The position numbers and the translations under genes are program-made. This document shows positions 1,169 to 16,752 of a DNA stretch of 64,000 bases, piece after piece (within the stretch, counting starts at the first letter, position 1; each line of letters begins with the position of its first letter). The notes under the pieces are model-generated. The model was not told where the DNA came from and did no database searches. It was given only the letters and a program-made list of their open reading frames with translations. The stretch comes from Anaerolineaceae bacterium (GTDB lineage: Bacteria > Chloroflexota > Anaerolineae > Promineifilales > Promineifilaceae), in assembly GCA_002699125.1 (NCBI GenBank), contig PABI01000078.1, forward strand, positions 62,001-126,000, in the 5' to 3' direction.

Positions 1169-2614
1169 TTACCCAATCGAGCCCTCCATCTGCAATTGAA
1201 TCAAACGATTCATCTCGATGGCATATTCCATTGGCAGCTCTTTCACCAGCGGCTCAATGAAACCATTTACAATCATGGAGGTAGCAGTTTCTTCATCAAT
1301 GCCGCGGCTCATCAGGTAGAAGAGTTGCTCTTCACCCACCTTGCTCACCGACGCTTCGTGGCCGATGTTCACATCTTCCTCTTCAATTTCGATGTAGGGG
1401 TAGGTGTCAGAACGGCTGGTTTCATCCAGCAGCAGCGCATCGCAAACCACGTTGGATTTACAGTGGTAAGCGCCCTTGTTCACCTTGAGCAGACCACGGT
1501 AGGAAGAGCGGCCGCCATCTTTACTAATCGACTTGGAGATGATGCGGCTGGTTGTGTTCGATGCGGCATGAACAACCTTGCCACCGGCATCCTGGTGCTG
1601 GCCCTTGCCGGCAAAAGCGATGGACAATACTTCACCGTGTGCCCCTTCGCCCGTCATGTAAACGGCCGGGTATTTCATCGTCACTTTGGAACCCAAGTTG
1701 CCATCGACCCACTCCATGGTGGCATTTTCTTCAGCGATGGCCCGCTTGGTTACCAAATTATAGACGTTGTTTGACCAGTTTTGGATGGTGGTGTAACGGC
1801 AGCGGCCACCTTTTTTCACGATGATTTCTACCACAGCAGAGTGCAGCGAATCCTCAGAGTAGATGGGCGCGGTGCAGCCTTCAACGTAATGAACGTAAGC
1901 ACCTTCATCAATAATGATGAGTGTGCGCTCGAACTGGCCCACGTTTTTGGCGTTGATACGGAAGTACGCCTGGAGCGGCATCTCCACATGGACCCCAGGG
2001 GGTACATAGATGAAAGAACCACCGGACCAAACGGCCGTATTCAGCGCCGCAAACTTGTTGTCATTGTGGGGAATAATGGTGGAAAAATATTCTTTTACCA
2101 GCTCAGGATATTTGGCCAGCCCATCATCCATCCCCAAGAAGATAACGCCTTTCTCTTCCAATTCCTTCTTAATGTTGTGGTAAACCACTTCAGATTCGTA
2201 CTGAGCCGCCACGCCTGAGAGGAACTTCTGCTCCGCTTCCGGGATACCTAGCTTGTTGAAGGTATCTTTAATGTAACTTGGGATATCTTCCCAGGTATCA
2301 CCATCGCGCTCATTTGGTTTGATGTAGTAAAAAATGTCCTCGAACTTAATACCGCTCAAATCTGCACCCCAATCGGGCATCGGCCGTTCCAGGAAATGCT
2401 GATACGCCTTCAGGCGAATGTCCAGCATCCATTCCGGCTCATTTTTACGGAGCGACATGGCGCGAATCAGATTTTCGTCCAGCCCCTTTTCGGCCTTAAA
2501 GAAATAATCTTCAACGTCAGAGAAACCGTATTTTGTAGCGTAATCCTGGTTGACCAGGGAAACAACTTCTTCTTCACTTAGATCTGGGTTAATGTCTAGA
2601 ATGTTTTCTGCCAT
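1169..2614 (-). CDS. sufB: Fe-S cluster assembly protein SufB
   Basis: [45 protein letters not shown]...; strong SufB hallmarks ([24 protein letters not shown]). Start chosen at the internal Met (2614) rather than 2701. Confidence 0.97.
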
Positions 2615-2615
2615 A

Positions 2616-3398
2616 TTAAGCCTCCTCAAGAGTGCTATACTTTTCGCGAAGCCAATCGTATCCTTTTTCTTCCAGCTTGATGGCCAGTTCAGGACCGCCA
2701 CTTTCTACGATACGGCCGTCCATCATAATATGGACATGGTCTGGCTCAATGTAGTTCAGAATACGTTGGTAATGAGTTATGACCAAAGCGCCCATGTTGA
2801 ACTCCTGGCGCAGGCGGTTTGCCCCTTCAGACACGACGCGCAGGGCATCAATGTCCAGGCCGGAGTCCGTTTCGTCCATAATGGCGATTTTCGGTTCTAC
2901 CGTCGCCATTTGTAAAATTTCTACACGCTTCTTTTCCCCACCGGAGAAACCTTCATTTAGGTAACGACCAGCAAATTTGTGGTCGATGCCCAACATATCC
3001 ATTTTCTCCTTGAGCAAACGACGGAACTGGGGAATAGAAATCCCTTTGTCATCCGGGTCTTCTGCCTGACGGCGCGAATTAATGGTTTGGCGCAAGAATT
3101 TGGCTAAGGTAACGCCAGGAACGGAAGCGGGGTATTGAAAAGCTAAAAACAGGCCGGCGCGTGAACGCTCATCGGCTTCCATTTCAAACAGGTCTTCACC
3201 ACCCAGGATAACCTGGCCGGCAGTGGCTTCATAAGAGGGATGTCCCGCCAATGTGTAGGCCAATGTGCTTTTGCCAGAACCGTTGGGCCCCATCAGCGCA
3301 TGGACTTCTCCTTGCTTAATCAGTAAATCAATCCCCTTCAAAATAGGTTGATCACCTATGCTTACGTGTAAATTTTTGATTTCTAAGGCTATTGTCAT
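2616..3398 (-). CDS. sufC: Fe-S cluster assembly ATPase SufC
   Basis: Walker [10 protein letters not shown], signature FSGGEKKR, SufC-like size and context. Confidence 0.97.
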
Positions 3399-3461
3399 CG
3401 TTCGTTTTAGTCTCCTGTCGTGTTTCTGTGCAATCTATACGTTGCCCATATACGATGAAAA

Positions 3462-3490
3462 ATTATAACATAGGCAGATAGCATCGTCAA
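3462..3490 (-). promoter_or_regulatory. Predicted sigma70-type promoter for sufCBD (TTGACG-N17-TATAAT on minus strand)
   Basis: -35 at 3490-3485, -10 at 3467-3462, 17-bp spacer, 64 bp upstream of sufC ATG. Confidence 0.75.
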
Positions 3491-3493
3491 TTA

Positions 3494-3511
3494 TTATCAT
3501 AAATATGATAA
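3494..3511. promoter_or_regulatory. Candidate operator: palindrome TTATCATA-AA-TATGATAA between divergent promoters
   Basis: 8-bp perfect arms, 2-nt spacer, centred between the two -35 boxes of the suf/sufR-like promoters. Confidence 0.6.
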
Positions 3512-3523
3512 AAATAGCATAAA

Positions 3524-3552
3524 TTGACAATTCAGTCTGGCGTTGTTATACT
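3524..3552 (+). promoter_or_regulatory. Predicted sigma70-type promoter for the sufR-like gene (TTGACA-N17-TATACT)
   Basis: Near-consensus hexamers with 17-bp spacer upstream of the CDS at 3616. Confidence 0.75.
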
Positions 3553-3615
3553 TTTTGACAAATTTTTGTGGGAAATCTGGCTAAAATGCTGTAAAAGTAG
3601 GCAAAGGATTTTATC

Positions 3616-4278
3616 GTGAAATCAGTAACAAGCAAGGGTAACCAGAGCACACGGGACCTCATTCTTCATGAACTCAAAGCGTCTGCCCAATGCAATATTG
3701 AAGCATTGGCCGAGGCTGCTGACATCTCCCCGGTTACTGTACGTCATCACTTGAATGCTTTGCAGGCCGAAGGGCTGATTAAAGTGGAAAGTGTACGGCG
3801 AAAGGTGGGACGGCCGTATTACGTCTACAGTCTCAGCGAAAAGGGAAATGAACTGTTTCCCCAAAAATATTTCAGCCTCACCAACCGTCTGCTGGAAGAG
3901 CTAAAAGATCGTCTGCCGCCGGAAACTGTTAATGAAATCTTCATTAGCCTGGTAGAACGGATGATGGAAGAGCGTGAGGGCGAGTTTGAAGGTTTACCGT
4001 TCGAAGAACGGCTCAATTATGTGATAAACTTACTGGGCAAAGAAGGCTTTTTGGCCCGGTGGGAAAAAATGGGAGACGGCCGTTACCAAATTATCGAATA
4101 CAGCTGTCCGTACATTTCGATGGGCCAGCAGCATACCGAGGTGTGCACACTGGACAAACAGCTAATGATTACTGTGCTGGGAACGGCCGTTGAGCAGCAC
4201 AGCTGCATGTTACACGGCGATGACTGCTGCCAATTTACACTGCCGTTACGGCCAGCAGATATTCAAGTAAATTCATAA
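3616..4278 (+). CDS. sufR: SufR-like helix-turn-helix regulator with C-terminal cysteine cluster
   Basis: N-terminal winged HTH (NIEALAEAADISPVTVRHHLNALQAEGLI), C-terminal YSCPY...EVCTLD...HSCMLHGDDCCQF; divergent to sufCBD. Confidence 0.8.
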   Translation: MKSVTSKGNQSTRDLILHELKASAQCNIEALAEAADISPVTVRHHLNALQAEGLIKVESVRRKVGRPYYVYSLSEKGNELFPQKYFSLTNRLLEELKDRLPPETVNEIFISLVERMMEEREGEFEGLPFEERLNYVINLLGKEGFLARWEKMGDGRYQIIEYSCPYISMGQQHTEVCTLDKQLMITVLGTAVEQHSCMLHGDDCCQFTLPLRPADIQVNS

Positions 4279-4319
4279 CAATAAATGCGCCTCCTGAAAA
4301 ACCATCACAGGGGTGCAAA

Positions 4320-4371
4320 AACGCAGAGAGAATCGAACGAAAAATCTGCGTAAATCTGCGAAATCTGCGGT
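4320..4371. repeat. Dispersed spacer repeat, CGCAGAG / AAATCTGCG type
   Basis: aaaaatctgcgtaaatctgcgaaatctgcgg; related words recur at 42035, 49071, 55670, 57558, 59083, 63681. Confidence 0.6.
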
Positions 4372-4391
4372 TTTTTCAGTGAAACCGCCAA

Positions 4392-4718
4392 ATGGAATTA
4401 AGGAACAAAACAATGATTGCCAATAAAGAAGAAGAACTGATTGAATCTCTACGTAGCGTTATTGATCCGGAAATTGGATTAAATGTTGTGGAATTAGGCC
4501 TGGTGCGCAACCTGGACATTAACGAAGAGACCGATGCGGCCAATATCACCATGATCCTCACCACCCCATTCTGCCCTTACGGTCCGCAAATCATTGAGCA
4601 GGTGCGCATGGTTGGCGGCCAGGTGATGGAAGGTGGCGTTTCCGTAGAAATTGGCACCGAATTGTGGGACCCCTCCATGATGGAAGAAGGGGCCGGTGGC
4701 GACTGGGGCTTATTCTAA
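4392..4718 (+). CDS. MIP18/DUF59-family Fe-S assembly protein (SufT-like)
   Basis: EELIESLRSVIDPEIGLNVVELGLV...TTPFCPYGPQIIEQV; suf context; start may be the second Met at 4413. Confidence 0.88.
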   Translation: MELRNKTMIANKEEELIESLRSVIDPEIGLNVVELGLVRNLDINEETDAANITMILTTPFCPYGPQIIEQVRMVGGQVMEGGVSVEIGTELWDPSMMEEGAGGDWGLF

Positions 4719-4734
4719 ACAATCGAAATTATGC

Positions 4735-4798
4735 AGGTGCGGCGCACTTGCCCGACGTGAAGTGCAGCTAAACTCGCTAAAGAAGGTGCGTCGCACCT
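4735..4798. repeat. Paired AGGTGCGnCGCACyT palindromes
   Basis: AGGTGCGGCGCACTT (4735-4749) and AAGGTGCGTCGCACCT (4783-4798). Confidence 0.6.
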
Positions 4799-4808
4799 CT
4801 GAAACCTG

Positions 4809-5738
4809 TTACCGATAAGGCTCCCGTAGTGGGAGCTTTTTCTTGTCACGGCGACGCCACAAGAACCGCTCGTAGAAGAAGCCGGTGGCGTTGGCGGCCT
4901 GGGTCAAACAAAGCATTCCGGTCAAAATGTAAGCCCGAATATCACGGGCCATCGTTAAGGGGAAGCTAACCAACTTTAGGTAGAAACCGGGTGGTTCCAG
5001 CCGCACAACCTCTTGTTTACGCTGGCTGCGCAGCCAACGATACAGCCAGGCGCCCCGACCATAGTTGAAATGCTGCCGCCAAAACGTGAACGGCCGTAAA
5101 TCATGCTCATGCAAAATAACTGCCCGCGGCCAATAGATCATTTTATAGCCATGATCCAGCCAACGGTCACACAACTCACGGTCTTCACCGGCCGCTAGAG
5201 GCATTGTCTCGTCAAAACCACCTATCTGCCAAAACAGGTCAGCCGCCACGGCAAAATTGTTTGAGGTAAAAAATAAGGCGCGTGATTCCGTCTGGTTGTA
5301 ATAATGGTACAAAAAGTCAATGAGAAGCTGGCTGGTGATGGAAAACGGATTGCGTGGCAGGGCATTTCTGGTGTAGCCACCAATCATTGCCTGCGGATTA
5401 TTCTCTAAACCTTGCGCCAAGAAAGTAAGCCAGGTCGGCGTTGGCGCACAATCATCATCCGTAAACGCCAGGTATTGGCCCTGGGCCAGCTTTGCCCCTG
5501 TATTGCGGGCCACAGACGGCCCCAGATTCGGCTGGCGATGATACCGCAGGGGCATCTCGTTCTGAAATGGCGCAACCACCGGTGCCAGCGAAGTGGAACT
5601 GCCATCATCAACCACAATCACCTCAAACTGATCCGGTGGATATTGCTGCAAAGCCAGGGCTGCCAGACATTGGCTGAGCAGCTGCGGACGGCCGTACGCG
5701 GGAATGATAACAGAGAAAAACGGCCGTTTCTCACTCAT
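4809..5738 (-). CDS. Glycosyltransferase family 2
   Basis: FFSVIIPAYGRPQLLSQCL...VVDDGSS...ARNTGAKLAQGQYLAFTDDD. Confidence 0.92.
   Translation of the reverse strand: MSEKRPFFSVIIPAYGRPQLLSQCLAALALQQYPPDQFEVIVVDDGSSTSLAPVVAPFQNEMPLRYHRQPNLGPSVARNTGAKLAQGQYLAFTDDDCAPTPTWLTFLAQGLENNPQAMIGGYTRNALPRNPFSITSQLLIDFLYHYYNQTESRALFFTSNNFAVAADLFWQIGGFDETMPLAAGEDRELCDRWLDHGYKMIYWPRAVILHEHDLRPFTFWRQHFNYGRGAWLYRWLRSQRKQEVVRLEPPGFYLKLVSFPLTMARDIRAYILTGMLCLTQAANATGFFYERFLWRRRDKKKLPLREPYR
4820..4841 (+). terminator. Intrinsic terminator for the plus-strand sufT-like gene, inside the 3' end of the convergent CDS
   Basis: GCTCCC-GTAGT-GGGAGC-TTTTT. Confidence 0.7.
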
Positions 5739-6985
5739 AACGTTTCCTCATCAAGCAGCCAGTGGGAAGGTGGCGCCAGCACGCCTTTCTCCCCCACACC
5801 CTGGGTCACCAGCAGCGGGTAGACATGCCAATGGTAATCGTAGGCGTGGGACCAGTTCGCCTCGTACAAACCCACATCTACAAAGTAAGCTCCCTGCACC
5901 AAATCAAGACGGTCTAGCACCAATGAAATACGCCCTTCCCCCTCCTTTTCACGAAGCTTTATTCCACCTGCCTCCGTATGCGTGTCAAAACAAACAAAGC
6001 CATCTTCCCGGCTAACGGTCACGCCAACAATGGGCATTTTGATGGGTGTCGGGGCCTGGTAAGTGATTTCTACCTGCAATGGACTGCCACTTTCCATTTC
6101 AGAGACGGCCGTGCCATCTTCATCAAGCAGGCGAACGGCCGTAATCTCCATTTCCAGCGAGCCAAAACGATTCTTGTTAATTTGCAGCGTTGTGCCCGAA
6201 CTGGTGTGCAGGGTTGGGGTCACCGCCGGAGTGCGGCGGCGCGTTTGGTCAGCCATGTCGGCCACATACTGCCCCACCACAATTTCTGGCTCGCCGTGGG
6301 CCACCGTCTGTCCTTGCCGCAGCCACAGCACCTCATCGCACAATTTCTGCACCTGATCTGCGTCATGAGAAACCAGCAAAATGGTGCAGCCAGCAGCGCG
6401 AAACTGGGCAATCCGGTCCAGACATTTACGCTGAAACGCCAGATCGCCTACGGCCAGCACTTCATCAATCAGCAGCACATCGGGATCAATGTGAGCGGCA
6501 ATGGCAAACGCCAGCCGCATTTGCATCCCGGTGCTGTAGGTGCGCAAAGGATTGTCAATAAAATCTTCCAGCTCGGCAAAAGCAACGATGTCATCAAACC
6601 GCTGGCTAATCTCCTGGCGCAGCAAACCAGAAATGACGCCGCTGATGTAGGTGTTCTCTCGCCCTGAGAGATCGGGATGGAAGCCGGCACCCAGGTCCAG
6701 AAGGGCACCGATACGGCCGTTTACCTGAATACGGCCGTTGTCTGGCTGCCCCACGCCGCCAATCAGGCGCAGCAGGGTCGATTTGCCCGCCCCATTCTTG
6801 CCAATTACACCCAACATTTGCCCCTGGCCAATCTGGAAGCTCACGTCACGCAGCGCCCAAAACTGGTCAGCAGCGCGCAGTAAGTTAGGGCCTTTCACCA
6901 CCAGCTCGGCAATCGTGTTGGGTCTTTGCGGATGATAGGTGCGAAACTTCTTGCTGACGTTTTGCACCGTAATGGCAGCAGACAT
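5735..6985 (-). CDS. Polysaccharide ABC exporter ATP-binding protein (Wzt-like, with C-terminal Wzt_C-like domain)
   Basis: GKNGAGKSTLLRLIGG, YSTGMQMRLAFAIA, LLIDEVLAVGD; ~150-aa C-terminal beta-rich extension. Confidence 0.93.
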   Translation of the reverse strand: MSAAITVQNVSKKFRTYHPQRPNTIAELVVKGPNLLRAADQFWALRDVSFQIGQGQMLGVIGKNGAGKSTLLRLIGGVGQPDNGRIQVNGRIGALLDLGAGFHPDLSGRENTYISGVISGLLRQEISQRFDDIVAFAELEDFIDNPLRTYSTGMQMRLAFAIAAHIDPDVLLIDEVLAVGDLAFQRKCLDRIAQFRAAGCTILLVSHDADQVQKLCDEVLWLRQGQTVAHGEPEIVVGQYVADMADQTRRRTPAVTPTLHTSSGTTLQINKNRFGSLEMEITAVRLLDEDGTAVSEMESGSPLQVEITYQAPTPIKMPIVGVTVSREDGFVCFDTHTEAGGIKLREKEGEGRISLVLDRLDLVQGAYFVDVGLYEANWSHAYDYHWHVYPLLVTQGVGEKGVLAPPSHWLLDEETL

Positions 6986-9900
6986 TTACAGTTCCTCTAC
7001 AAAGCGGTAGCTGGTTCGCAAAAAGAGTTGGTACCCGACAACCAACAATCCCAGCGACCCTGACAATAAAATCAGCAGCGTTACAAAATTAGGCGCCTGA
7101 CCATTGATAAAAATCGCCCGATAGGCGTCAAGCAGCATCAGCAGGGGATTCAGCTTAAACAGCCATTGAATTCTTTCTGAAAAACGGCCGGCATCATAAA
7201 AAATGGGGGTCAGATAAAACAGCAGCAGCAAAAAGACGTTCAAAAGATGCTGCGTGTCGCGGAACATCACATGAAAAGTGGCCACAAAATAGGCCAGGCT
7301 CAACGTGAATAGAAACTGGAGCACAATGATCACGGGCAACCAGAAAACGTTTGGGGTCAGCACAATGTTGGTAAACAGCAAAAAAAGCAGCAAGATGGGC
7401 AGCGAGAGCAAAAAATGTATCAGGTTGGAGCCAACGGTTACCACCGGCAGCACAATTGGCGGGAAGCCAGGCCGACGAATCAGGTCGCGGCCTTCCAGAA
7501 TCACCGTGGCTGAAGCCGTGAGCGAGGCATTGAACCAACCCCAGGCCAGCAGGCCGGTGAAGAGATAGGCAGGATAATTGGAAATATCCAGCGGCAGCAG
7601 TGCCTGAAAGACAAAGCTAAACACCAGAAGCTGGGTAAATGGGTTTAGCAGCGACCACAAAATGCCCAAAATGGACCCCTTGTAGCGCAGTTTGATGTCC
7701 CTGGAAATCAATTCTCGCATGAGGTCGCGCAGGTAAAGCCAGCGGCGCGAGCTAAAAAAGGCGCCCACAATTTGCCAACGCTGCTTTTGTCTGGCCGCAA
7801 GATAACCGCCTGACAGCACAACCAGACCCAAGCCAAGCCACAAAGGCCAGCCCCAACCAGGTGCCCGCGTCACGAGTTGCTGCATCTGAATGGTGAGAGA
7901 CGGCCGTATCTCAACCACCTCACTCTCCACCGCCGTAACTTGATAATCAGCTCCTTGATTGGTATCCCACACCTCTACCCGCTCTGCGCCATTGTCAACA
8001 AACGTTTGAAAAACATAATCCAGTTGGGTTCTTTGGGCCACCGGCACCGTTACCGAGAAGCCATCCTCCCCAGGCGACATGGGCGTGTACAGCAGGCCGT
8101 CCACTAATTCCGTATCTGGCGGCCAATATTGCGTCGGCAACGACTGCCAGCCATTGATCCCCCACACCAGGTTAACGGCCGTTGCCCCCGGCAGCCGGTA
8201 GCGAATCTCTTGTGTGGTAACGGCCGTTTCTGCCAGGTAGGTACGCTCATCCACGGAGAGACCGGACTCATGGATTACCGACTCATTTGTGCCCACCAAA
8301 ATCTGGTAATCTTGCCCATTTTGCGTGTCCCATAGGTCAACCGGAGCATGCTGCTGGCCTTCCGTCACCTGAAAAACGTAGTCGAGCGCGGTTTCCGGCG
8401 GCACTTGCACCTCGGCCACAAATGTTTCCCCTTCTTTTTGCATGGCCGTTACCATGAGGTTGTCGATGACGGCCGTTTCTTCACGCTGAGATGCTGGTGG
8501 CAGTAGCTGCCAGCCATCAACACCCCACACCAGTTTAACGGCCGCAGCCTCCGGCAGTCGATAGCGGATCACCTGCGTCACCATTGGGCCGGCGGCAACA
8601 GCAGCATCCATTTGGGGCCGATTGGCAAACAATGATAGCTCGACCCCGTAGAGTGGAAACTGTTCGGCAGTTTCGTAAAGAGCAGTTAATCTTTGGGCCA
8701 CCACACCTTCTGTATCATTGCTGTTAGCCTGGACCAACCAGACACGATTAGCATCAGCAACCAGCTTGTCTATCTCTCCAAGATCGCGGTACTGTTCTTC
8801 GTCCGTATAGGAAGTGGCTAGATCAAATGGTAAATCCAGCGGCACCTGGCGCATGTCGTTGCGTCCAAAATAGTAGGCAAAAGCATTTTCCCTAATGCCG
8901 CCAGGATTGAACACAATCACGTCCCCAGCTTGCCCTTTGTCCTCTAAACGAGCGGCAACCTCGCGCCACTGCTGCTTGTCTACAAAAGCGTAATAACGAC
9001 TGACACCCATCAACGAGGTGAGAGCAATCAAAACCAGCAGCCCGTAACGCAGCGATGGCCAGCGGATGTGCCCCAGCGCCGCTGCCACCAGCAGGTACAA
9101 TCCCAGGGAAGCAGCAATGGTGTAGCGCGGAATCAAAAATGGCACGATGAGGCGGGAGGCTACAAAGGGCACAATTACTGGCAAGATCAGCCAAAGGAGT
9201 AGGAGAAGATAAACGGCCGTTCTATCCTGCCAAATTGCATGCACCCCGGTCTGGTTGAGTGAGGAACGGCCGTTCACCACCACAAACAAAACAAGTCCAG
9301 CAAACAAAAACAGCAGCAGCGTCGATTCAGACGCATAATCCAGGGCCGTGCTCCACAACGTGCCCACCGTCGGCACCGGAATCCAAACGCCAGTCGCCTG
9401 CATTGCCTGGACTTCCAGCAGCAAATAGCGCAGCCAGGGGGCAAACAATAGCAGTGTCGCTGCTTGAAGCGCCACCCAGCGCTGCCAGGTTAACGGCAGT
9501 ACTGGCCGTCGTTGCCAGTACATGAAGAGCCAAAACAAATTTTGCGCCGCCACAATGAAGACACCAAAAAAGTGCGTATAAAGCAGCACCACATTTACCA
9601 GCACGTAGCCTACGGCCGTCCAGCGCGAAAACCGTTCAAACAACCTGACAAACAGGAACATTGAAAGCAAGACCAGAAGCACCATCAAGCTGTAAGCCCG
9701 GGCTTCCTGGGAAAATTCGATGTGAAACAAAGAAATGGCCAGCAAAAAAGCGCTCAGCAGCCCCGCTTGTCGCCCCAACAGGCGGCGACCCAGCCAAAAC
9801 ATAACCGGCAGAGACAGGGCGCCAAACAGGGCCGAAAGAAACCGTAACGCCAGCTCCGAATCGCCGAAAATCTCTACCCAATAATGAAGGAGAATGAAAT

Positions 9901-10147
9901 AAAAAGGGGGATTCTTAAAAATGCGGTTGGCCAAAATGCCCGGCAGCGAAAGTCTGGCAACGGAAATGGACGTCCCTTCATCAACCCATAAACTTTCCGC
10001 GCCCAACCCGTAAAAACGCAGCGCAGTGCCCAGCAGCAAAATGACAATGAAAAAGATCTCGGCGCGCAGGAGCGTAAAAATCTTTGACTGCCAGCCAGAC
10101 GCTGCTTGATTTTGCTCGCTGGCACCAACCACATTTGGTATGCTCAC
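6986..10147 (-). CDS. Fusion: N-terminal GT-C/ArnT-PMT-like membrane glycosyltransferase, two tandem carbohydrate-binding-like modules, C-terminal ABC-2 (Wzm-like) permease
   Basis: N-term LRFYGLGAESLWVDEGTS...FSQEARAYSL; repeats IRYRLPEAAAVKLVWGVDGWQLLP / IRYRLPGATAVNLVWGINGWQSLP; C-term LISRDIKLRYKGSILGILWSLLNPF...SYRFVEEL. Confidence 0.9.
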   Translation of the reverse strand: MSIPNVVGASEQNQAASGWQSKIFTLLRAEIFFIVILLLGTALRFYGLGAESLWVDEGTSISVARLSLPGILANRIFKNPPFYFILLHYWVEIFGDSELALRFLSALFGALSLPVMFWLGRRLLGRQAGLLSAFLLAISLFHIEFSQEARAYSLMVLLVLLSMFLFVRLFERFSRWTAVGYVLVNVVLLYTHFFGVFIVAAQNLFWLFMYWQRRPVLPLTWQRWVALQAATLLLFAPWLRYLLLEVQAMQATGVWIPVPTVGTLWSTALDYASESTLLLFLFAGLVLFVVVNGRSSLNQTGVHAIWQDRTAVYLLLLLWLILPVIVPFVASRLIVPFLIPRYTIAASLGLYLLVAAALGHIRWPSLRYGLLVLIALTSLMGVSRYYAFVDKQQWREVAARLEDKGQAGDVIVFNPGGIRENAFAYYFGRNDMRQVPLDLPFDLATSYTDEEQYRDLGEIDKLVADANRVWLVQANSNDTEGVVAQRLTALYETAEQFPLYGVELSLFANRPQMDAAVAAGPMVTQVIRYRLPEAAAVKLVWGVDGWQLLPPASQREETAVIDNLMVTAMQKEGETFVAEVQVPPETALDYVFQVTEGQQHAPVDLWDTQNGQDYQILVGTNESVIHESGLSVDERTYLAETAVTTQEIRYRLPGATAVNLVWGINGWQSLPTQYWPPDTELVDGLLYTPMSPGEDGFSVTVPVAQRTQLDYVFQTFVDNGAERVEVWDTNQGADYQVTAVESEVVEIRPSLTIQMQQLVTRAPGWGWPLWLGLGLVVLSGGYLAARQKQRWQIVGAFFSSRRWLYLRDLMRELISRDIKLRYKGSILGILWSLLNPFTQLLVFSFVFQALLPLDISNYPAYLFTGLLAWGWFNASLTASATVILEGRDLIRRPGFPPIVLPVVTVGSNLIHFLLSLPILLLFLLFTNIVLTPNVFWLPVIIVLQFLFTLSLAYFVATFHVMFRDTQHLLNVFLLLLFYLTPIFYDAGRFSERIQWLFKLNPLLMLLDAYRAIFINGQAPNFVTLLILLSGSLGLLVVGYQLFLRTSYRFVEEL

Positions 10148-11970
10148 GGTCGTGCCCCTTTGCTGTTAGCACCTGCACACAGGCGGTTAAGCAGCGAGGT
10201 GGGATCCGTTAACGGCCGTTCCAGCAAAGCATGTTGCACCACCGCCCGGCATAGATCAAAATCGGCTGCCTGCGTGAGCGCCGCGCGCAGCCGTTGTGCC
10301 GGGATACGTCCGGTCTCGGTCGGCAGCGTCACCGTCGCCACCGGTTCGCCCGCCACGGTCAGGGTTATGGCGGCCTCAGCCCCATTCACCAATAAATCGG
10401 GTGTTGGCTCGGCTAACGCCAGGGTCACGTTGCTTTCAATCTCCCGGGTAGGCAGCTCGCCCCGCTCCACCATCGCCTGATCGTAGAAATAAGCAGATGG
10501 CCAGGTGGAGCGCCGCCATACCTCTTGCAAAAACAGCTGCCAGCCAACTTCATTCCAGGCGTGGGTCCAAAATGCATCCGGTTCTGCCGGCGGCACCGTG
10601 CCAAGAAGCAGCGAGCCGCGCCACAAGGAAACGCTCGCGTCGCCTTCTGCCTTCTCCAGCTTAGGGAAAAGATGGTAAGCAAAGTACCGGCCTAAAATCG
10701 GCCAGGCAAACGCCTGTGCAATCTCTTTCACGACGCACTCGGTAGTAGCGTTTTTGGTTAGTGCCACCGCCCCCAAATAGGCACCTTCGAGCAAGACCTC
10801 ATACCGGCAAACGGCCGTTCGCCGCGGCGGAGAAACAAGCACAATCGGCTCAGACACCTCCACAGCCATGGCCCAGGTACGCCCAACTGTACACGGCCGT
10901 TCCCGAGGCGAATGCTCCAAAATGAGCCGTTCCAAATGACGCAGGGCGGGCTGAACCAGATCCGGCGCCTGAACCTGTTTGGCCAGGGCCGACAGGAACG
11001 CTTTAACCAGGCCATCTATTTTCGGCCAGAGCAAATCCCAACCGTCAGTGCCCATGCCATGCGGCAAAAGGGCCGCCTCAAACAAAAAAGCCGCTACGTG
11101 CTCCGGATCGAGGTCTGGATAACTATCGTCACCCAGCAGCGCCAGAAACGGCCGTGGATCTTCTCCGCTGCCTAGCATCAGCCCAAACGGCCAGCAAGCA
11201 TAGCGAATGCGAGCCCCAGCAGCCTGGGTAGACGGCATCCCTTGTGGGTATGGCGAATCGGCAAACGTCGGATCTGGCCTGTGCGCCTGGTTGATGACCC
11301 GCAGACCAACGCGAAGAAGCCTTACGCCTTTCAAGGAAACAGAACCGGGACGGGTGCGATACAGTGCCAAAACTTCCCGTACCGCGCCAAATCGTGCCCC
11401 GGCACGGGCAATGCGCTGCCAAAAATCCCAATCCTGGCAAGACGCCAACGAGGCATCAAATCCGGAAACGGCCGTTACCAACGCACCCCGCACCACACAG
11501 GCATTCGGCTGAAAAACACACCGTTCGGCAAACAGCGGAAATAAATCCGGCGCGTCAGGCGCAAAGTGAGGCTGGTCCCAACTGCCATCCGGGGCAACCC
11601 GGTGCCAGCCGCAGTGCACAGCATCCAGGCTGGCATCTTGCCGCAGCGCTGCCGTCATTTTTTCCAGATGGGCGGGCAGCAGCCAGTCGTCGGCATCCAA
11701 AAACAACAGCCACTCATGGCGAGCCTGGCCAATGCCCTTGTTGCGCGCCGCGCTGCCGCCGGCATTGGCCTGCTGCCACAAGTGAATACGGCCGTCTTGC
11801 TGTGCATAGCGCTGCACAATTGCCGCCGTCTCATCCATCGAACCATCATCCACCACAATCAATTCCCAATGGGGCATCGTCTGCGCCAGCACAGACTCAA
11901 TCGCCGCGCCAATGGTGGCTGCCGCATTGTAGGCTGGCATCACAATAGAAACTGGCAAAAACTCATTCAT
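10144..11970 (-). CDS. Glycosyltransferase family 2 with ~300-aa C-terminal extension of unknown function
   Basis: VSIVMPAYNAAATIGAAIESVLAQ...VVDDGSMDET...ARNKGIGQARHEWLLFLDADD. Confidence 0.9.
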   Translation of the reverse strand: MNEFLPVSIVMPAYNAAATIGAAIESVLAQTMPHWELIVVDDGSMDETAAIVQRYAQQDGRIHLWQQANAGGSAARNKGIGQARHEWLLFLDADDWLLPAHLEKMTAALRQDASLDAVHCGWHRVAPDGSWDQPHFAPDAPDLFPLFAERCVFQPNACVVRGALVTAVSGFDASLASCQDWDFWQRIARAGARFGAVREVLALYRTRPGSVSLKGVRLLRVGLRVINQAHRPDPTFADSPYPQGMPSTQAAGARIRYACWPFGLMLGSGEDPRPFLALLGDDSYPDLDPEHVAAFLFEAALLPHGMGTDGWDLLWPKIDGLVKAFLSALAKQVQAPDLVQPALRHLERLILEHSPRERPCTVGRTWAMAVEVSEPIVLVSPPRRTAVCRYEVLLEGAYLGAVALTKNATTECVVKEIAQAFAWPILGRYFAYHLFPKLEKAEGDASVSLWRGSLLLGTVPPAEPDAFWTHAWNEVGWQLFLQEVWRRSTWPSAYFYDQAMVERGELPTREIESNVTLALAEPTPDLLVNGAEAAITLTVAGEPVATVTLPTETGRIPAQRLRAALTQAADFDLCRAVVQHALLERPLTDPTSLLNRLCAGANSKGARP

Positions 11971-11991: not shown

Positions 11992-13347
11992 TCACCTCAG
12001 CTCTATCAGGTCGGTTTCGGGGGAACGGCCGTTTTCACCAACAGCAGCGCCGCCAATCGGATTTGCACCAGGGCCATTCAGCCGCCGATGCTGGCGCACC
12101 GCCCGCCAAAAAGCCAGCGGGCCAACCAGATTCCCCCAAATTTCCAGCAAAACCAGCCGCAGCGAATAATCCTGACGGCCGCGCACAATTTCCCAAATGC
12201 GGCGCACATGCCATCGAGGCAAGTCCCACAACAGTTGGCGAATCACCCGCCGGTCGCCGTCCGTCACCAGCGTGCGCAGCTGGTAGCTGGTCTGGCCCTT
12301 GTTGTAATTGTAAAGCTGCTGGCGCAGCGCCCGCATCGTTGTGCGGTGCTTATGCCAGACGTAGGCCGCCGGCTCATAATAACAAATATGGCCGGCCTTG
12401 AGGATACGGTAAAACATGTAAATATCTTCGCCGACGCCGGTTGGCTGCCCTGGCCCCAAAGTCTCATCAAACATGCCGGAATCTGGCAGCACGCTTTTGC
12501 GAATGGCCACGTTGGCCGTACCACCCAGATCCCAGGTGTGTACCACATGTTTGGGCGAGCGGAAAAAACGTTCGTCAAAAAGGCGCGGCCGGTAACCGCG
12601 CCCCAATGCGCCATACTTCTCAAACATTTCCTGGCTTTCGTTTTCCATTTCCAAAGGCAAAACCAGGCCGCTGACGCACATCACCCGCTCGTCGGCAAAA
12701 GGGGCCAGGATGCGGCTAGGCCAATGAGCTGGCACTTTCACGTCGTCATCAATGTAGGCCACAATGTCGCCTTTGGCGGCGATGAGACCTTTGTTACGGC
12801 CGTATGCCACCCCGGGCCGCAGCTCTGCTTCATACCGCACTTGCGGAAAGTCGGCCACCACCGCTTCGGTTTGCCCCGACGCCGGGTTATTGTCCACTAC
12901 AATGATCTCCAACTGGTGGCGGCCTGGCTCCAGCGCTACCAGCGTTTCCAGACACATCTGCAAATCCTGGGGGCGATCGCGGGTGCAGACCACAACGCTC
13001 AAGAAAAAGCGGCGGCCAGTTTTAGGTGACAAAGCAGGCAGCAGATCGGCCAGCTCCGGCTCTGCGGCCCATTCGGCACCTGCCTGGCGCGGCGCGCAGC
13101 CAACCGCCTGGGCAAAATCAGGGGCGTGCACATCTTGCCCTTGCAGCAGCTGCTTGCCCAGCTGGCGCAAAATTTCGCTGCGTAGTTGAATGGCCAACAC
13201 CGGGGTGCGACAGTTGTCAATCACCACCTGGCCGATGGGAATGCCATGCCGCCGCACAATCGCCCAGACGGCATCGTATCTGGCAGCATCGGCGACCTGA
13301 GTGGGCAACGGCCGTTCCAAATCAATCGCCACTATCTTTGTCGGCAT
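11992..13347 (-). CDS. Glycosyltransferase family 2 with N-terminal ~100-aa module
   Basis: VVVCTRDRPQDLQMCLETLVALEPG...IIVVDNNPAS...AYIDDD; start at MPTKIVAIDLERP overlapping the upstream stop (TGATG). Confidence 0.9.
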   Translation of the reverse strand: MPTKIVAIDLERPLPTQVADAARYDAVWAIVRRHGIPIGQVVIDNCRTPVLAIQLRSEILRQLGKQLLQGQDVHAPDFAQAVGCAPRQAGAEWAAEPELADLLPALSPKTGRRFFLSVVVCTRDRPQDLQMCLETLVALEPGRHQLEIIVVDNNPASGQTEAVVADFPQVRYEAELRPGVAYGRNKGLIAAKGDIVAYIDDDVKVPAHWPSRILAPFADERVMCVSGLVLPLEMENESQEMFEKYGALGRGYRPRLFDERFFRSPKHVVHTWDLGGTANVAIRKSVLPDSGMFDETLGPGQPTGVGEDIYMFYRILKAGHICYYEPAAYVWHKHRTTMRALRQQLYNYNKGQTSYQLRTLVTDGDRRVIRQLLWDLPRWHVRRIWEIVRGRQDYSLRLVLLEIWGNLVGPLAFWRAVRQHRRLNGPGANPIGGAAVGENGRSPETDLIELR

Positions 13348-14606
13348 CAGGTAGGCTCTCCCAACAGTGGCGGCAGCGGCTGCTCGCCAAACTGCTGCTG
13401 GATGCGGCGCACGTGGCGGCGTGACTGCCAATACGCCAGCGGGCCGCGCAAAGCGCCCACCGCCTCGACCATCACCAGCCCGCGCGGATACCCTTTGGGG
13501 CGACGCAGCAGCCGCTTGACAAACCAGCCACCAAACCAGAGCGTAGCAAAGGTCAACGTGCGCCAGCGCATTGGGGCATCGTCAAAAAAGGTTTTGGTCC
13601 AAAAAGCGTACACACCCCGACCAAAATCATACAATTGGTCGCGCAGCTTCTCGTAAGAAGGACGATGATAATGCCAGATTAGCGCCGCTGGCTCATAGAC
13701 GAGGATGTAGCCCGCTCGCAGCGTACGGTAAAACATGTCGTGGTCGCCCGCGCCGTGTGTGGGCGTGCCCACGTCCAGCGCCGGGTCAAAGTCGCCGATT
13801 TTGGCGAACAAACTTTTACGATAAGCCATGTTGCAGCCGGTGCCAAACACCCCGGCTCCCAATGGCCAAAAGCGCCAATGTTTGCGCATCCCCATCGTGT
13901 AATAACGGCACTCAAAGCCCCGGCCAAAACCACCATACTCTTCAAAGATGTTCTGTGCGGCCGTTTCCCGCGCCGCCGGGGCCACCAAACCAGTTACACA
14001 CATCACTGCTTCATTGGCAAAGTGACGGGCCAATGCCTTGACCCAAAGGGGATCAACGGCCACGTCGTCATCGGTGTAGGCCACGATGCTGCCCAATGCT
14101 TCGCGGGCGGCGCAAATTCTAGCCCAGTTTAGGCCGGGGCGCGGCTCCATCACATAGCGAATTTGGGGGAACTCGGCGACCAATTTGGCGGTGGCATCAT
14201 CTTCCGGCGCGTTGTCAATAATGAGCAAATCCAGCAAGTGAGGCGGATAATCCAGCTCGACCAATGTGTTGAGCGTGCGGCGCAGGCTCTGCGGCCGACC
14301 GCGCGTGCAAATGGCCACGGTGACATGCGGCAGCTCCTCGTCGCCATTCTCCAGCAAATGATCCGCTTCGCCCAACAGTGACAGCAATGCCGCCTGATTC
14401 AACTCGGCGAACAGCTGCTGCTCAATGACCGGGCGCAAATATGACTCCTGTAAAAAGCGGGGGCTTTTGGCCTCCACCCAAACATAGCCGATGGGGTGAT
14501 CTTTTTGCCGCACCAAAATTTGCAGGTGCGAATAACGCGCCAAATCCAGATGATCCAGAGTAGGAAACGGCCGTGTCAACTCCACCGCCAATACTTTAAC
14601 GGCCAA
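13347..14606 (-). CDS. Glycosyltransferase family 2 with N-terminal ~100-aa module (probable TTG start)
   Basis: VAICTRGRPQSLRRTLNTLVELDYPP...AYTDDD; ORF track extends to 14717, but (L/M)AVKVLAVELTRPFPT aligns with MPTKIVAIDLERPLPT of the neighbour, favouring TTG at 14606. Confidence 0.85.
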   Translation of the reverse strand: MAVKVLAVELTRPFPTLDHLDLARYSHLQILVRQKDHPIGYVWVEAKSPRFLQESYLRPVIEQQLFAELNQAALLSLLGEADHLLENGDEELPHVTVAICTRGRPQSLRRTLNTLVELDYPPHLLDLLIIDNAPEDDATAKLVAEFPQIRYVMEPRPGLNWARICAAREALGSIVAYTDDDVAVDPLWVKALARHFANEAVMCVTGLVAPAARETAAQNIFEEYGGFGRGFECRYYTMGMRKHWRFWPLGAGVFGTGCNMAYRKSLFAKIGDFDPALDVGTPTHGAGDHDMFYRTLRAGYILVYEPAALIWHYHRPSYEKLRDQLYDFGRGVYAFWTKTFFDDAPMRWRTLTFATLWFGGWFVKRLLRRPKGYPRGLVMVEAVGALRGPLAYWQSRRHVRRIQQQFGEQPLPPLLGEPT

Positions 14607-16752
14607 GCGGTTCACCTCCGTTGCGGGCAGCCATCGGCTGCTTAAGCGTGAATTGGCCAACTTGAGCCGAGGTCCGGCGCAGCTGCCGTCGCCCTTGCCA
14701 GTAAGCCCAGGGGCCACGCCAGCTGGCCCGCCAGCCGGCCCAGGCCAGGGCCGGCGTCAGGCAGTCACTGCGGGTCAACGCCGTCCACAGCTGCTGGGGA
14801 TAATAACGCAGCCAGAGGCCAAGTAACATGCGTACGGCCGTCCAATCCCCCTGCATGCCCCATTTTGCGTAAGCGGCGGCCGTGCCGCGGCCATAAGCAG
14901 CGCTCAACCGGCGGGCCGCTCCTGCTTCCCGCTGGTGCCGGTGCCAGACGAATACGGCCGGCTCGTAGATGAGCGACTCGCCAGCTTGCAGTAAGCGGTA
15001 AAAGATGTCGATATCGCCACCCGCCTGGGCAGGCGATCCGGGATCCAACGCTTCGTCAAAGCCACCTATCTTTTGCAAGGCTCGACGACGAAAGCTCATG
15101 TTGGCCCCCACGCCAAGCTGCGGTGCCTCCTGGCGTTCGGCTGCGCCAAGAAATTGGCGGCGGGCAAAACCACGACCCAAACCACCCAGGGCTTGTTCAA
15201 ATAGTTGTTGTTCAACCGTTTCCAGTTCAGCCGGTAAAACCAGGCCCATCACGCCTGCCACTGTTTTGTTTTGAGCGTAAACGGCCGTTAACGTCGCCAA
15301 CCAATCCGCAGTCACTACCACATCATCATCCAGATAGGCCACGACTTCTGCCTGGGCCGCCGCCAGCCCCCGGTTGCGCGCCCGGCACAATCCAGGGCGC
15401 GGCTCGTGCAAAAACTGTGCGTCAAATTCGGCAGCGATGACTGCTGTCTGGGTCGGATTGGCACTGTTGTCGACCACAATGAGCTGGGTTAGGAACGGCC
15501 GTATCCCCACCAAACTGCTCAAACAGGCGCGCAAAGCATCCGGCCGGTGCCGCGTGCAAACAATCACGGCCAAAGAAGGCGTCGTCTGCTCATTTTGCTC
15601 AGACCCGCCTGCCGACGAATCCGGCAGCTCAAGATTTTTCGATAGCTGCTGCAAACGGTGCTGTGAAACAATTTCGCCCGGCGCATGTAAATATTTTGTC
15701 TCCAGCGGACGCTTACCAGCTTTGAAAACTAGCAGCAAATCATTTTTGGTCGGATTGGGAATATCGGTGAGGGTTTTATGATCGCAATCAACGGTAGTTA
15801 CTTCGGCTGCTGGCCAATTTTGCTGCTGGCCTGTTTTGGCCCGGTACCGCGCCTGTAAATAAGCCCACGGCCCGAGAAAATTGCCCGCTGCCTCCAAAAA
15901 GGTTAGCCCAAGCGGCACACTGTCCGGGCGATTGGTCAAGCGCTGCCAGACATGGCGCAGCAGCAGCACAGCCTGCTGCCGGCACAATCGAGAGACCTGC
16001 CCTTTCAGCGTGGGTTCTTCAAACCACACTTTGCTCATGAGGGCAGTGAACGTTTTGCCGTAGGCCAGAAATTGTTGGCGGGTAGCGGCGGCAGTGGGGC
16101 GATGTTCATGGTAAACCAGCAGCGTGGGATCGTAGACGGCCGTAAAACCCGCCAGCAGCAGTCGGCGAAAAATATCCAAATCGCCGCCGCCCCCGGTAGG
16201 CATCCCCGCATCTAATGCCTCATCAAACAAGCCAATGCGATCAAACACGCGGCGCTGAAACGCCATGTTGCAGCCGGTACCTAAATGGTAGGGATGAATG
16301 GGGAACCAGGATCGCTGATCATTCTTGGTAAATCGGTCGGGGTGTGGCCCGCGGTCAAAAGAGAAACGAGCTTCAAAATGGCGCTGGGCCGGTGTATCCA
16401 GCCCGGTGGGCAGAACACGTCCTGTCACACAGTCCACGGTTTCATCGGCAAAGGCGGCTTGTAATGCTGTTAGCCAATTTTCACCAACCAAAACATCATC
16501 GTCAATGAAGGCGATGATTTCACCTTTGGCGTGGCGCACGGCCGTATTTCGCGCCACATCAAGCCCAGGACGAACTTCACGCACAAACCGTGCCCCAACT
16601 TCCCGGGCCAGATGAAGTTCGGCGTCGCTTGTTGGCGCACTGGCTACCACCAACAGCTCGCTTTGCTTATTGATTTGTGGTTGTAGTGTGGCCAGGCACC
16701 GCTGTAACTGCGTCGGTCGGTCACGGGTGCAAACAGCAATCGTCAAAAACAT
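14596..16752 (-). CDS. Tandem glycosyltransferase (two GT2 domains in one polypeptide)
   Basis: FLTIAVCTRDRPTQLQRCLATLQP...FIDDD and LAVIVCTRHRPDALRACLSSLVGI...AYLDDD. Confidence 0.92.
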   Translation of the reverse strand: MFLTIAVCTRDRPTQLQRCLATLQPQINKQSELLVVASAPTSDAELHLAREVGARFVREVRPGLDVARNTAVRHAKGEIIAFIDDDVLVGENWLTALQAAFADETVDCVTGRVLPTGLDTPAQRHFEARFSFDRGPHPDRFTKNDQRSWFPIHPYHLGTGCNMAFQRRVFDRIGLFDEALDAGMPTGGGGDLDIFRRLLLAGFTAVYDPTLLVYHEHRPTAAATRQQFLAYGKTFTALMSKVWFEEPTLKGQVSRLCRQQAVLLLRHVWQRLTNRPDSVPLGLTFLEAAGNFLGPWAYLQARYRAKTGQQQNWPAAEVTTVDCDHKTLTDIPNPTKNDLLLVFKAGKRPLETKYLHAPGEIVSQHRLQQLSKNLELPDSSAGGSEQNEQTTPSLAVIVCTRHRPDALRACLSSLVGIRPFLTQLIVVDNSANPTQTAVIAAEFDAQFLHEPRPGLCRARNRGLAAAQAEVVAYLDDDVVVTADWLATLTAVYAQNKTVAGVMGLVLPAELETVEQQLFEQALGGLGRGFARRQFLGAAERQEAPQLGVGANMSFRRRALQKIGGFDEALDPGSPAQAGGDIDIFYRLLQAGESLIYEPAVFVWHRHQREAGAARRLSAAYGRGTAAAYAKWGMQGDWTAVRMLLGLWLRYYPQQLWTALTRSDCLTPALAWAGWRASWRGPWAYWQGRRQLRRTSAQVGQFTLKQPMAARNGGEPLGR

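Follow-up and report, generated by a model that had tools for sequence, protein, structure and literature searches.

In the WzmWzt O-antigen ABC transporter, as known from Aquifex aeolicus (PDB 7k2t, 6m96), the permease Wzm is a separate protein, and the transporter's only carbohydrate-binding module (CBM) is cytoplasmic, being located on Wzt, where it checks the chain end prior to export (PMC9445017; PMC11231755). A CBM on the other side of the membrane has been described for GT136 ORF12 of Citrobacter youngae O1, a GT-C ribofuranosyltransferase with an outside, C-terminal, Ig-like CBM that binds the unmodified O-polysaccharide once this has been exported by an ABC transporter; in the tests made, this CBM proved dispensable (PMC11127046). 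Likewise, the arabinosyltransferases EmbC and AftD are GT-C membrane enzymes with one or more outside CBMs touching the acceptor glycan (PMC11127046). For the starch-type module CBM25, residues W34, W74, H26, D81 and N76 are known to contact the ligand (PMC4625611). Here we describe a locus where, in contrast to the known transporters, Wzm is joined on the outside to two predicted modules and a GT-C enzyme.

The window, by which we mean the whole stretch of 64,000 nucleotides that was analysed, carries on its minus strand an ORF with a GTG start at position 10147, a stop at 6986-6988 and no internal stops. Its upstream neighbour is a GT2 gene, and Wzt starts on the base directly after the end of the ORF (Table 1). 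Domains in the fusion ORF and the neighbouring genes were called with Pfam profiles, which placed PMT_2 at residues 78-239 (E 3.9e-11; 43.9 bits versus a cut-off of 26.1) together with a PMT match (1.3e-6), and ABC2_membrane at residues 811-1013 (2.8e-18). A preliminary description, made from the letters of the DNA, had claimed a single uninterrupted ORF of 1053 residues with an ArnT/PMT-type transferase at its N-terminus, two tandem repeats resembling starch-binding or other CBM modules, and a complete Wzm directly followed by Wzt. The ORF and its exact coordinates were confirmed, and all three domain calls proved right in the Pfam searches, the repeats being further borne out by their mutual identity and their fold matches (see below).

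Table 1. Features of the fusion ORF and its surroundings (positions are those of the window).
Feature	Position	Strand	Basis
GT2 glycosyltransferase, same cluster	4809..5738	-	Pfam
Wzt ATPase with C-terminal Wzt_C glycan-recognition domain	5735..6985	-	Pfam ABC_tran, Wzt_C
Fusion ORF: GT-C transferase, two CBM53-like modules, linker transmembrane helix, Wzm permease	6986..10147	-	1053 aa
Wzm ABC-2 permease part, residues 800-1053	6986..7750	-	Pfam ABC2_membrane; TM-score 0.84 to A. aeolicus Wzm 7k2t
Linker transmembrane helix, residues 767-785, predicted to bring the chain back to the cytoplasm	7793..7849	-	Hydropathy, K/R distribution
CBM53-like module 2, residues 648-750	7898..8206	-	Pfam CBM53, profile, fold search
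CBM53-like module 1, residues 527-628	8264..8569	-	Profile match of the 5.5e-48 to 8.6e-48 class; fold search
GT39/PMT_2-type GT-C transferase part, residues 1-520	8588..10147	-	D56-E57 motif, QEARAY motif; Pfam PMT_2/PMT
GT2 glycosyltransferase with C-terminal extension, 4-nt overlap with the fusion	10144..11970	-	Pfam
Three more GT2-domain ORFs (11992-13431, 13347-14717, 14596-16752)	11992..16752	-	Pfam

As an observation on the window as a whole, the palindrome AACGGCCGTT, found for example at 8174-8183 and 9212-9221, occurred in 38 copies versus 0.06 expected, and in the 8.05-Mb genome (G000) it was counted 3388 times versus 42 for a reversed-string control. Many genera of the organism's own family have it in abundance, and other genera and the other sampled families have it at or near the control level; its behaviour is like that of the cyanobacterial HIP1 palindrome. 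We found no paper on it.

The transferase part is polytopic, as judged by hydropathy, and its residues D56, E57, R150 and Y152 are kept in all eight aligned GT39 relatives. The acidic DE motif is of the catalytic type, intact, and located in the first outside loop; throughout the GT-C class, active sites face the outside. A PDB sequence search with this part gave nothing useful, and in a model of the full-length protein the modules and Wzm were confident while the GT-C core was poor past residue 150 (mean pLDDT 66).

The two repeats are 41% identical to each other over 111 residues (E 5e-27), which is far beyond chance. Pfam CBM53 matched in two stretches, with 28.4 bits for the whole protein against a cut-off of 27.6, whereas module 1 alone reached 19.5 bits, below the cut-off. 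Since PDB sequence searches with the modules gave nothing useful, a fold search was needed, and with a model of the tandem modules (mean pLDDT 80.5) the best matches included CBM26, CBM25 and CBM20. The TM-score to CBM25 with maltotetraose was 0.65 (by target length) at 26% identity. Pilin and antibody folds, with low TM-scores, were also in the match list, as expected because the modules are beta-sandwiches. An invariant Trp and an invariant Asp were each present in 10 of 10 modules, and a WD pair was near-invariant (9/10). By motif and spacing (WDx5D), the window modules have counterparts of W34, W74 and D81 of CBM25; H26 and N76 are without one. Pfam and fold thus characterize the modules as CBM53/25/26/20-like, and glycan binding is what these matches predict; a fold of the starch-binding type is no proof that the ligand is an alpha-glucan. 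Aromatic positions and spacing agree with this assignment, but the described members of these families are mainly found in amylases and starch synthases, whereas the window modules reside on a glycan-export membrane protein.

Residues 390-766 form a single long K/R-poor stretch, which is followed by the linker helix and then by 51 residues, including 11 K/R, that lead into Wzm. Because of this charge pattern, and because signal peptides precede the homologous modules in another genome (L136, see below), the modules are most likely located outside the membrane, as hydropathy, charge and homology all indicate. The Wzm part has the fold of the known permease, and its Wzt likewise ends in a glycan-recognition domain; the domains and their adjacency predict that the two presumably export a polysaccharide. 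In contrast to known WzmWzt, the window system would combine Wzt_C inside with two modules outside.

As PF16760 by itself gave few and weak matches in the class, the modules were searched with profiles built here. In overlapping sets, matches came from 3 of the 52 family genomes, 3 of 56 of the order, 3 of the 396 in the class sample, 1 of 12 of the G246 family and 1 of 400 in the phylum sample, the last being that of the window. Four genomes in total carried modules, each time in Wzm or in genes directly before it. One of these, Anaerolineae HKST-UBA12 (L136), belongs to another family of Anaerolineae than the window's organism, and has three consecutive genes followed by Wzt with Wzt_C, in which a signal peptide, two modules and a membrane helix are combined with a PMT_2 transferase, a sulfatase-superfamily membrane enzyme and Wzm, respectively. 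The intact 581-residue protein of the third gene (L136:15335-17080) is collinear with window residues 518-1053 (42% identity, 544 columns, E 3e-144), the alignment taking in both modules, the linker helix and the whole Wzm. It differs in having a signal peptide in place of the GT-C part; the PMT_2 enzyme is encoded apart from it and bears a module pair of its own. The sulfatase-superfamily enzyme (L136:12399-15242), which carries its signal peptide and double CBM53-like module directly beside this CBM-Wzm fusion, may be a phospho-transferase.

In two further genomes (L040/L069 and L041/L060), one C-terminal module is joined to a polytopic protein in which Pfam gave no confident transferase match and which differs from the membrane protein of the window; this protein ends 13 bp (L040/L069) or 7 bp (L041/L060) before an unfused Wzm. 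Among the genomes searched, a module joined directly to a PMT_2 part in the window order was seen in the window only. Of the species genomes scanned (85,462), the 80 closest Wzm relatives were kept, and nearly all of these were plain permeases, with the L136 protein (L109) and two FkbM-methyltransferase-Wzm fusions as clear exceptions. In the latter, from two genomes of one genus (L042:8450-10249, identical to L074, and L044:3-1472, identical to L124 and cut by the contig end), the methyltransferase lies ahead of Wzm; being without a signal peptide, this fusion is probably cytoplasmic, recalling chain-end methylation ahead of export. Separate PMT_2 genes were found in Wzm/Wzt clusters at L057 (28 bp upstream), L066, L069, L080, L086 and L115, and the fact that such a frequent neighbour became fused points to a functional partnership. 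A protein of ~390-400 residues starting like 'MATAVLDLEF..LPA.I.G...Y..ALILLR' was also observed upstream of Wzm (L059, L060, L066, L080, L086, L115 and others), and the window ORFs 11992-13431 and 13347-14717 have a similar start ahead of their GT2 domain. In a tree of Wzm, the module-linked permeases did not form one strongly supported clade: the window grouped with L069 at 92/75, with L060 and L109 nearby. They may have had one origin with subsequent losses or have arisen by repeated gains, the tree fitting both. The complete three-part fusion was present in no other genome searched and is known from the window's genome only, and no plasmid record covered most of the module-Wzm part.

In the sister species (G003), we compared L043:1013-9116 with positions 1169-11970 of the window. 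The order there is Suf genes (96% identity), a 220-residue ORF (93%), GT2 (73%), Wzt (55%) and a plain Wzm of 274 residues (43%), which occupies the place of the fusion. The steep drop in identity between the flanking genes and those for export looks as if a surface-polysaccharide cassette may have been replaced at a fixed chromosomal site.

The best reading of these data, in our view, and a fairly probable one, is that an ABC-exported glycan is finished outside the cytoplasm in a process coupled to its export. In the cytoplasm, the GT2 enzymes would make a lipid-linked polysaccharide, to be exported by Wzt, with its Wzt_C domain, together with the fusion's Wzm part. The two outside modules beside the channel mouth would catch the emerging chain, and the GT-C part would then add one or more sugars, the likely donor being a polyprenyl-phosphate-sugar. 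A three-component extracytoplasmic glycosylation system would also include a lipid-phosphate-sugar synthase and a flippase; among the neighbours annotated with Pfam, none was a flippase. If Wzm dimerises like the known WzmWzt, each exporter would hold four modules and two transferases. Support for this reading is drawn from the single polypeptide, the identities of its domains, the outside position of the modules, the Wzt/GT2 neighbourhood, and the presence of modules on both exporter and membrane enzymes in L136; we infer the glycan binding, the donor, the acceptor and the timing. The order would be export, capture and modification because the active sites of GT-C enzymes and the modules face the outside while the chain is presumably made inside. 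The preliminary description had likewise envisaged a single machine that modifies and exports a glycan, an idea that persists in our best reading, but it had the modules hold the glycan between transfer and export; this step order is reversed by the topology, which would let export come first, followed by holding and modification.

Supporting the finishing of an exported glycan, the double module in L136 is carried by three proteins encoded one after the other directly before Wzt, namely a PMT_2 transferase, an enzyme of the sulfatase superfamily and Wzm. GT136 ORF12 offers a precedent, being a GT-C enzyme with an outside CBM that binds an exported backbone. Speaking against it are the missing counterparts of H26 and N76, the poorly modelled GT-C core and the restriction of the architecture to one genome, and the dispensability of the CBM in GT136 ORF12 makes it less supported as well. 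ORF12 also differs from the window protein in being apart from the exporter, in belonging to another GT-C family with one CBM of another kind, and in being experimentally characterised, whereas our assignments are sequence-based; EmbC and AftD have no transporter fusion and belong to other enzyme families. Conceivably, and we propose this only tentatively, the shared outside double module could serve as a tag that organises a complex for finishing the glycan in step with its export; the exporter and several membrane enzymes would carry this tag, and the chain would be passed from channel to enzymes while emerging. Exporter, tag and enzyme would then have been merged into one protein in the window organism.

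Alternatively, the GT-C part could attach rather than decorate, moving the newly exported lipid-linked glycan, held in place by the modules, to an acceptor that may be a protein, a lipid or the wall. GT-C folds do include oligosaccharide transferases and ligases, and fusion to an exporter would suit a transferase that uses the exported chain as donor, but we regard attachment as unlikely: the nearest Pfam families, PMT_2 and PMT, are typified by enzymes with single-sugar lipid donors, and modules on the sulfatase-superfamily enzyme of L136 fit decoration better. An equally doubtful possibility is that the modules bind no glycan and serve as spacers or protein-protein assembly domains keeping exporter and membrane enzymes together. 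The weak Pfam scores of single modules, the absence of H26 and N76 counterparts and the double module on three neighbouring L136 proteins, which could serve mutual assembly, would be in line with this, whereas the aromatic and acidic positions conserved at ligand-site spacing and the fold matches to starch-binding modules are not. A further alternative is that the fusion arose by accident, through gene loss or a read-through that became fixed locally, and has no specific function, its parts working independently. This appears quite improbable even though the fusion occurs in one genome and relatives encode the parts as separate genes, since the frame is open across three domains, the motifs are intact, the transmembrane helix keeps the correct topology, and the CBM-Wzm half is kept in another family. 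Finally, although the assembly (8.05 Mb, 96% complete, source contig C80) is split into 188 contigs, with contamination estimated at 8.4%, we judged a misjoin or misassembly unlikely, and an artefact uniting a GT part and a module-Wzm part from different places or organisms improbable in the extreme, as the CBM-Wzm junction is kept in the collinear L136 homologue, the organism's characteristic palindrome ACGGCCGT is present in both the GT and the module parts, G003 has the flanking genes in the same order at 93-96% identity, the three parts are similar in GC (0.53/0.56/0.51), joins of a polytopic protein to a C-terminal module have analogues in L040 and L041, and no second copy of the fusion was found in the organism's own genome.

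Each part is already known singly, as is the combination of GT-C and CBM; what is new is that modules and an enzyme are carried on the exporter. The earlier statement that such parts are not known in this fused order is right for the complete three-part protein as far as the collections searched go, but not for its halves, as two modules are joined to Wzm in L136 and GT-C enzymes with CBMs are known from GT136, EmbC and AftD. In the open-access literature, we found no description of the complete three-part architecture, nor of outside modules on an exporter permease that are shared with neighbouring membrane enzymes; the rarity of the fusion holds for the genome collections searched. The window permease itself would thus bear a second possible recognition site, on the outside and linked to an enzyme that likely finishes the glycan. 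If this is true, export would be physically coupled to post-export modification, a coupling made testable by the separately encoded versions in relatives, and the locus gives a clue to the way in which surface glycans are finished in Chloroflexota.
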